Below are positions 4,466-5,670 of a stretch of 7,813 bases of DNA, one piece after another (position 1 is the first letter of the stretch; each line of letters begins with the position of its first letter). The stretch comes from an uncultured Porphyromonadaceae bacterium. GTDB lineage: Bacteria > Bacteroidota > Bacteroidia > Bacteroidales > Muribaculaceae. The notes beneath the pieces were generated by a model. The model saw only the letters and a program-made list of their open reading frames with translations. It ran no database searches and was not told the DNA's origin. The stretch is taken from positions 1-7,813 of the forward strand of contig CAMWKC010000095.1 of assembly GCA_947174735.1 (NCBI GenBank), in the 5' to 3' direction. A program made the translations under genes and the position numbers.

Positions 4466-5263
4466 ATGCGTCCATATCTTGCGCTCCTCACCCATATTCT
4501 TGAAAACGGTGTCCGTAAAGATGACCGTACCGGCACCGGCACCATATCTACATTCGGTTACCAGATGCGTTTTGACCTTGAACAGGGATTCCCTCTGCTC
4601 ACTACGAAAAAGGTGCATTTGAAGAGTATAATACACGAACTCCTGTGGTTTCTTGCCGGTGATACCAATGTGCACACTCTACAACGTGAAGGAGTGCGTA
4701 TCTGGAATGAATGGGCAGACCCGGATACAGGTGATTTAGGCCATATTTACGGTTATCAGTGGCGTTCATGGCCCGATTATAAGGGCGGCTCTATCGACCA
4801 GATTACGCAGGCTGTAGAGACTATACGCCACAATCCTGATTCACGACGCATTATTGTCAGTGCATGGAATGTAGCCGACCTCGATAACATGAATCTGCCA
4901 CCCTGTCACGCACTGTTTCAGTTCTACGTCGCACAAGGCCGTCTATCCTGTCAGCTTTATCAGCGCAGTGCGGATTGTTTCCTCGGCGTACCATTCAACA
5001 TAGCTTCATACGCCTTACTCACCATGATGATGGCACAGGTCACGGGTCTACGCCCCGGCGAGTTCATACACACACTTGGCGACGCACACATTTATACCAA
5101 TCATCTCGAACAGGTACGTACCCAGCTCACCCGCGAACCGCGCCCCCTCCCCCGTATGCACCTTGACCCTGCTGTCACTGACATATTTGCCTTTCGTCCT
5201 GATCATTTCCGGCTCGAAGGTTACAACCCTCACCCTGCCCTTCACGGCACGGTTTCAGTGTGA
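4466..5263 (+). CDS. thyA: Thymidylate synthase ThyA
   Basis: Cytosolic folate-dependent thymidylate synthase: it converts dUMP and methylene-tetrahydrofolate to dTMP and dihydrofolate. The 265 residues closely match the 264 of E. coli ThyA, so the protein is full length. Visible functional residues are R21 in DDRTGTGT, R127/R128 in [11 protein letters not shown], the nucleophile C147 in [11 protein letters not shown]167 in YQRS, D170, N178 in [10 protein letters not shown] and H208/Y210 in GDAHIY. Each is offset by one from the E. coli numbering. The C-terminus ends in V, with GTVSV, near the position of the flexible E. coli tail. The ATG at 4466 gives the family's usual N-terminus (MRPYLALL). 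It is the last gene of the yidC cluster. In many bacteria folA follows thyA; here a repeat array begins four bases after the stop and no folA is present in the window. Confidence 0.98.
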
Positions 5264-5267
5264 TAAA

Positions 5268-5461
5268 GTTATCGGAGTTATCGGAATTATCCGAATTATC
5301 GGAATCATCGGAGTTATCAGAATTATCAGAATTATCCGAGTTATCGGAGTTATCGGATTATATCCGATAACTCCGATAATTCCGATAGCTCTGATGATTC
5401 CGATAACTCCGATGATTCCGATAATTCCGAAAAATCCGATTACTCGGAAAAACCGGATAAA
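5268..5461. repeat. Mirror-symmetric tandem array of 9-bp units (10 forward, 11 inverted)
   Basis: Ten contiguous forward units of the form (G/A)TTATCGGA occupy 5268-5357. A 5-base spacer (TTATA) at 5358-5362 follows. Eleven contiguous inverted units of the form TCCGATAA(C/T) fill 5363-5461, the outermost three or four being degenerate. No unit has gained or lost a base. Pairing the arms around base 5360 gives 77 identities in 90 positions by my count, and unpaired positions include several that would be G-U wobbles in RNA. The central 9-bp units pair perfectly with a three-base loop. The array starts four bases after the thyA stop, so it would form a very long hairpin in the thyA mRNA 3' end and a possible cruciform in DNA. 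I do not recognise it as a named repeat family. It may act as terminator, mRNA stabiliser or protein-binding array. Confidence 0.95.
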
Positions 5462-5463
5462 TC

Positions 5464-5502
5464 CAACAAAATAGCCGCGACGTCTCACGACGTCACGGCT
5501 AT
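5464..5502 (-). terminator. Intrinsic terminator of the minus-strand small RNA
   Basis: Read on the minus strand, 5502-5471 forms a 13-position stem (ATAGCCGTGACGT with ACGTCGCGGCTAT, one mismatch) around a 6-base loop. It is followed immediately by the T-rich tract TTTTGTT. On the plus strand the same stem is followed by TGCACTTTG, a poor terminator tail, which supports minus-strand function. It may still impede plus-strand transcripts leaving the thyA array. Confidence 0.8.
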
Positions 5503-5634
5503 TGCACTTTGAATAACTGAGTAAATCAGTTCCCTAATAATTAATTTACACCTAATTATCCGTTCTTGTGTCTTGCTTAAGGGAAAGCTGACCCTCCGCT
5601 ACTCTGCGGACTGAGTCGCTACCCAACTGTTCTA
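5464..5634 (-). ncRNA. Candidate small non-coding RNA, about 170 nt, family unassigned
   Basis: The minus strand carries a complete transcription unit with no sensible reading frame. It has a consensus promoter (5640-5670), an expected start near 5632-5635, and an intrinsic terminator ending at about 5464. Predicted 5' structure: a bulged rod at 5581-5624. On the RNA this is GGG, AGC, GACUC, UCCGC, a loop AGAGUA, then GCGGA, GGGUC, GCU and CCC, giving 16 pairs with small bulges. Further possible hairpins are an AU-rich one (AUAAUUA with UAAUUAU) and AACUGA-UUUAC-UCAGUU, before the terminator stem. An alternative GCUU-UCCCUU-AAGC hairpin competes with the base of the rod. The RNA lacks an obvious 5'-3' closing stem as in typical 6S RNA and a GGAA-capped helix as in SRP RNA. 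I cannot assign it; a Bacteroidales-specific Rfam family is possible. Confidence 0.6.
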
Positions 5635-5639
5635 TGCTG

Positions 5640-5670
5640 CAAAGTTAATACTTCTTTAAACTGTCTGCAA
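5640..5670 (-). promoter_or_regulatory. Promoter of the minus-strand small RNA
   Basis: On the minus strand, TTG (5670-5668) is followed after 20 bases by TAACTTTG (5647-5640), a full TAnnTTTG match. The bases just upstream are A/T-rich, like an UP element. The predicted start is near 5632-5635. No protein start follows in a suitable frame, so the product is most simply an RNA. Confidence 0.75.

Follow-up and report, generated by a model that had tools for sequence, protein, structure and literature searches.

Several described repeat systems come close to the locus reported here. REP/BIME elements are palindromic repeats that occur dispersed in intergenic regions and next to the 3' ends of genes, a REP being characterised in PMC3733652 as a single palindrome of 20-40 bp; when placed less than 16 nt from a stop codon, REPs are described as lowering translation and stalling ribosomes in E. 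coli (PMC12306157). For perfect inverted repeats, a sharp peak at 50-80 bp downstream of the stop codon is reported in bacteria by a survey (PMC13155455). BrickBuilt of Porphyromonas gingivalis has, according to PMC4596501, 19 copies between genes, which have tandem units and long stem-loops and differ in unit number from strain to strain; there, the unit measures 23 nt, is accompanied by a leader, a tail and terminal inverted repeats, and lies 49-591 nt from coding sequences. The tandem repeats of Borgs are described as fast-evolving, intergenic or in ORFs, with a unit divisible by three and a disordered product, and also as perfect, head-to-tail and independently arising (PMC9879509). Finally, TAACTGA heptamer arrays of Beggiatoaceae, Cyanobacteria and some Bacteroidetes are reported as 7-bp direct repeats, intergenic and patchy across lineages, which in the main genome stand mostly a few nt before start codons, with one inverted case (PMC4679880).

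The window analysed here, a stretch of 7,813 nucleotides, is contig C95 of the G000 assembly (2.49 Mb in 388 contigs, estimated completeness 72%). Two other genomes recur in the comparisons: G045, a near relative, and G072, a sister species; their thyA genes are 97% and 94% identical to that of G000, respectively. According to Pfam, the window carries a yidC-type gene, a ferredoxin-type protein, thyA and a LacI-type regulator. The features around the end of thyA are as follows.

4466-5263, plus strand: thyA (thymidylate synthase; Pfam PF00303, E 2.2e-124), an ORF whose stop codon, TGA at 5261-5263, precedes the array.
5269-5357, plus strand: forward arm, ten 9-bp units of type TTATCGGAR (sequence reading; inverted-repeat and tandem-repeat searches).
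5358-5362, no strand assigned: spacer TTATA, the predicted loop region (sequence reading; folding).
5363-5461, plus strand: inverted arm, eleven 9-bp units of type TCCGATAAY, the last four degenerate (sequence reading; inverted-repeat and tandem-repeat searches).
5470-5503, minus strand: a separate terminator-like hairpin with the tail TTTTGTT (inverted repeat I20; terminator scan; folding).
5470-5650, minus strand: a conserved non-coding segment converging on thyA, a candidate small RNA, neighbour of the array and not part of it (sequence conservation).

A preliminary description of this DNA had reported ten forward and eleven inverted units around a 5-nt spacer without indels, and this is accurate. 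Forward units start at 5269, 5278 and onwards to 5350, inverted units at 5363, 5372 and onwards to 5453, which makes 21 units with zero indels; TAAAG separates the thyA stop TGA from the first of them. In the inverted-repeat search, the arms (5269-5358 and 5362-5451) were 90 nt each, 87% complementary and 3 nt apart, thus far exceeding the size of a normal terminator, as had been claimed. TRF detected 9-bp arrays on both sides of the centre, with unit matches of 84% and 75%. Exact TTATCGGA was found nine times in the window against 0.32 expected (none of 200 shuffles reached nine). Folded as RNA, the array region (5264-5464) gave -117.4 kcal/mol compared to -49.2 for its dinucleotide-shuffled versions (z -15.4), none of the 200 being equally stable. 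Rfam returned chance matches only, and none was above the gathering score (best tsr1, 42.9 bits versus a cut-off of 235).

An assembly artefact is unlikely as the source of this structure because G045, a different assembly, carries an array at this site too, longer by 63 nt and with 91.6% identity over 202 aligned bases. Thus, the total lack of such arrays in close relatives, which the preliminary description had named as grounds for dropping its reading, is not what we find. Alternatively, the units could extend thyA by a C-terminal Ser-Asp-x tail: translated in the thyA frame, the inverted arm gives SDN, and in-frame tails occur elsewhere (L010, L013, L175). However, two stops (TGA TAA) come before the array, the forward arm does not lie in the thyA frame, and the same site in G045 has the same stops. 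Taken together, we give hardly any credence to a coding tail or an artefact.

The array is not confined to thyA. Counting identical sequences once, and dropping loose clusters that had fewer than six units or were too sparse, the fetched stretches held 23 arrays in G000 and 30 in G045; the merging rule split two palindromes into separate arms (L171 3468/3598, L172 7738/7885). A further ten arrays came from five of the eight other genus genomes fetched. In the G000 assembly, a two-unit pattern had 82 matches on 18 contigs, with a single match for the backwards control. A strict three-unit pattern was positive in 10 and negative in 51 of 61 genus genomes, and it was found in none of the 394 other genomes sampled across the phylum (the one positive among 395 was G000 itself). 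A relaxed four-unit pattern matched 35 of 397 genomes of the taxonomic family, in 8 of 30 genera, with the highest counts in G045 (296), G000 (140), G106 (62) and G023 (42); low counts mean little here because the backwards control matches 16 of the 397 (counted from the listing). Other Bacteroidales-labelled records also contain the 9-bp units. Outside Bacteroidales, among the matches listed, the units stood mostly in one orientation, and in one Lentisphaerae contig (L134), about 170 nt separate a forward array from an inverted one; unit order was listed for 80 of the 84 collection matches (L085-L164). A mobile vector was considered and rejected: phage records had no match, each of the 17 IMG/VR contigs with units had them in a single orientation only, and the 14 plasmid matches were weak (74-79% identity over at most 44% of the query among the matches listed).

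Some individual arrays showed peculiarities. At the arm junction, the centre motif TCNGATTATATCNGA was present in one of 23 G000 arrays (window 5358-5362) and in five of 30 G045 arrays (L176, L177, L180, L185, L189), and 417 kb of the same loci contained none outside arm junctions. On contig C148 of G045, an array together with its surroundings occurs twice about 2.1 kb apart (L187, 1984-2229 and 4085-4330), as a tandem duplication or an assembly effect. In other genus genomes, 7-bp tandem arrays were seen near genes (L072, 884-1146; L201, several places).

We read the G000 and G045 arrays as a dispersed, REP-like palindromic minisatellite family, of which we found no description among the open-licence papers listed in our literature search. 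The earlier statement that the thyA array matches no known repeat class was too strong, as the family behaves much like REP/BIME elements and minisatellites, though it falls short of REP membership. Like REPs it is dispersed and mostly extragenic (37 of the 53 G000 and G045 arrays are intergenic); in contrast to the single short palindrome of a REP, its arms measure about 90 nt and consist of 9-bp units, and the unit differs between sister species. REPs go together with tyrosine (Y1) transposases (TnpA-REP/RAYT), whereas for the units no linkage to a Y1 transposase gene was observed. Y1_Tnp matches were obtained in four of four genomes, over the cut-off in three. The four in G000 lie on C58, C44, C80 and C16, none of them among the 18 unit-bearing contigs; contigs are short in this assembly. 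Whereas Borg repeats are perfect, direct and of independent origin by their description, one unit family occurs here at many loci, with units that vary and are inverted. BrickBuilt copies keep their distance from coding sequences, while the thyA array abuts a stop codon. By eye, the array junctions have no fixed end beyond the units and hence no common terminal inverted repeats of the MITE type; the orthologous comparison with G072 gave few clean empty sites. The TAACTGA arrays are likewise short-unit, intergenic and patchy, but apart from the one inverted case they are direct repeats, and in the main genome they mostly precede start codons. Unlike CRISPR, the units at thyA run head to tail without spacers.

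To describe placement, genes were taken as long-ORF calls and not from a gene finder. By the ORF rule used, 16 of the 53 arrays overlap an ORF, some of which really follow a stop codon (L012, L021). Five of the six reading frames are open through the units, which therefore produce spurious ORFs. Among the 37 intergenic arrays, 31 were flanked by a gene 3' end on one or both sides, 29 of them within 15 nt (overlaps included) and all 31 within 30 nt; the remaining six face 5' ends or a contig end. This is closer to the stop codon than the survey peak mentioned above. The position beside a stop codon that had been noted at thyA is thus a recurrent one, and the suggested role at the 3' end fits it. 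In L019, L024, L189 and L207, one of the units includes the stop codon (TAATCGGAG, TAGTCGGAG). Both neighbours were known for 25 intergenic arrays, 11 being convergent, 11 tandem and 3 divergent. In the convergent pairs at L018, L020, L170 and L181, the array makes up nearly the whole interval between two stop codons, and in the tandem cases it ends 13-33 nt before the next start codon. Eight of ten flanking proteins tested have a Pfam family. The same 9-bp units also encode Ser-Asp/Glu-x tails inside ORFs (L010, L013, L014, L175, L178); L174 was also listed among such C-terminal tails.

A stable hairpin after the gene, which at some convergent pairs is the sole long structure between the genes, is what an intrinsic (Rho-independent) terminator enlarged by repeat growth would provide. 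The folding z was below -3 in 29 of the 37 intergenic arrays, the other eight, mostly single-orientation arrays, showing no unusual folding. However, a T-tract directly after the stem (at least five T in 8 nt) was present in only 3 of 34 gene-strand tails, the window tail being ATCCAACAAA, and on these tails the canonical terminator was rejected. In addition, if tandem arrays stopped transcription, there would be little room for a promoter because so few nucleotides remain before the next start. At thyA, moreover, the separate minus-strand hairpin with its T-rich tail follows the array. Altogether, an enlarged terminator appears decidedly improbable.

The segment that contains this hairpin (5470-5650) has an identity of 99% to its counterpart in G045 and of 97% to that in G072, and it has matches in 24 of 111 genus genomes, 13 of the 24 lying within 1 kb of thyA by coordinate comparison. 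Nine distinct sequences could be aligned through a common block and through a hairpin at the end, whose stem changes while its CGTCGTGAGACG loop stays almost constant. There was no credible Rfam match. Ahead of the segment stands TTAACTTTGC, which we take to resemble the Bacteroides -7 box. Judged from its sequence, the minus strand looks like a candidate small RNA, so far undescribed, that would converge on thyA, with the array between both 3' ends.

The arms follow a single polarity. By a symmetric criterion, the forward (TTATCGGA) arm came first in 36 of 36 palindromic arrays (15 in G000, 20 in G045, one in another genome); L021 read as inverted, forward, inverted in a looser scan, below the threshold of this test. 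As independent births should give both orders, the uniform polarity suggests either common descent through copying or a constraint from the stop-codon side. The order of units within arms was less regular: mirror order was significant in 8 of 38 arrays, for which at most 15 of 300 sets of shuffled units did as well; the window array, with 18 of 300, was not among them.

Selection on RNA pairing was looked for in two ways. In 16 one-way arrays read on the gene strand, 67 G-U and 96 A-C mismatches were counted, thus showing no G-U bias; the imbalance (two-sided p 0.028) goes in the direction opposite to RNA-pairing selection. Five convergent arrays had 16 G-U and 13 A-C mismatches. In six orthologous pairs, chosen for having arrays in both genomes and including two that rest on a single flank (L024/L176 and L208/L172), compensatory change was scarce: 12 two-sided changes kept pairing and 6 broke it, while of the one-sided changes 52 broke and 22 kept it. 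The excess of pair-breaking over two-sided pair-keeping changes, 52 to 12, speaks against a hairpin reading, as do the eight intergenic arrays without unusual folding and the fact that G072 and most sampled genus members lack the TTATCGGA-type unit.

Changes between genomes were then considered. At thyA, the additional 63 nt in G045 correspond to seven units, between flanks that are 87-90% identical. The length difference was a multiple of 9 in three of the six orthologous pairs (thyA, L020/L170, L207/L169) and not in the other three. G000 and G045 share array sites, at a rate that is biased since the G045 stretches were picked for holding arrays; in the case of the G000 array L015, the G045 flank (L186 near 11539) is followed by 300 nt without a unit. 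A short-unit variant was present in 4 of 23 G000 arrays (in both arms of three), in none of 30 G045 arrays, and in zero or one of ten others depending on the word used, which suggests that unit variants spread between loci and between arms after the G000/G045 split.

The comparison with G072 covered 1.44 Mb of its genome of about 2.6 Mb. Both flanks were recovered there for 13 arrays (9 distinct sites), a single flank for 10 and neither for 30. The relaxed unit pattern had zero matches there. Three of the nine orthologous sites carry a different 9-bp unit of CTTATAAGA type (L012, L021, L207/L169), three are coding stretches with only degenerate S-D/E-x runs (L010, L014 twice), and three have no 9-bp array (thyA, L019, L181). 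At the orthologues of L019 and L181, folding revealed a long hairpin (at least 20 pairs) within about 30 nt of the stop codon, which the terminator pattern scan did not report; the array thus appears to stand where there would otherwise be an ordinary 3' hairpin. A period-9 scan of the 1.44 Mb detected 19 arrays of the CTTATAAGA-type unit, 9 of them with a stop codon within 30 nt and 15 folding with z below -3. This unit is near-palindromic (L219, L250, L251, L260, L266, L267, L270, L272, L278). L021 of G000 mixes both unit types. Array position is therefore partly kept while the unit turns over. A genome-wide concerted evolution, in which palindromic 9-bp arrays stay fixed at stop codons and the unit is rewritten as a set (TTATCGGAG versus CTTATAAGA), would account for such a pattern, and we put it forward as a possibility that is still doubtful.

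The change of unit also bears on a DNA-level element, namely a repeated binding site or a cruciform by which, between convergent genes, supercoils would be absorbed or polymerases blocked. Tandem units with palindromic arms, the surplus of convergent over divergent placements and mismatches without RNA-strand bias would all agree with it. On the other hand, a binding protein would have had to change along with the unit that differs in G072 at the same sites, and we consider such an element improbable.

A further explanation is that the arrays are self-propagating or mutation-driven palindromic minisatellites without useful function, which arise by slippage, template switching and inter-locus conversion and are tolerated at 3' ends and in disordered tails. 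It is a close rival because the pairing tests are negative, mirror order is rare, T-tracts are few and most genus members are without the unit. The short-unit variant of G000, the units that reappear as tails inside ORFs and the patchy occurrence in the genus also favour it. Tight anchoring to stop codons argues against it, as do the array sites common to G000 and G045 and the other unit at three of nine G072 sites. SbcD is part of a nuclease that attacks long palindromes. Loss of SbcCD defence was rejected as the cause of the arrays because SbcD is present in G000, G045 and G072 (over the cut-off in 6 of 10 genomes tested). On balance, a self-propagating repeat is quite possible, yet it is not the explanation that we put first.

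Our tentative preference, held with less than full conviction, is that the thyA array is one copy of a dispersed palindromic 9-bp family whose giant hairpin next to the stop codon marks or protects the mRNA 3' end and may slow ribosomes. An RNA hairpin at the 3' end fits because of the anchoring to stop codons, the paired arms, the rarity of arrays between divergent genes and the hairpin potential kept under a changed unit. In detail, the array would be transcribed with thyA, and the arms of the transcript would pair in the cell into one giant hairpin. This hairpin would act at the RNA 3' end, both marking and protecting the end of the message, and by analogy to E. coli REPs its closeness to the stop codon may slow terminating ribosomes. 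At L018, L020, L170 and L181, one array would serve both convergent transcripts. Variants would spread between the loci of one genome, through which a lineage could acquire its own unit.

Whatever their role, the arrays have practical consequences: several sit at contig ends, and they therefore probably break assemblies. If they act at mRNA 3' ends, they constitute a REP-like system of tiny units in which the shape is kept and the sequence rewritten. Concerted evolution, if true, would imply active copying between loci and a 3'-end role dependent on shape, not on sequence. Selfish arrays, on the other hand, would be an instance of satellite-like spread and turnover in compact bacterial genomes. 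Relatives that have TTATCGGA arrays, CTTATAAGA arrays or none at the same gene ends provide a natural experiment on stop-proximal hairpins.
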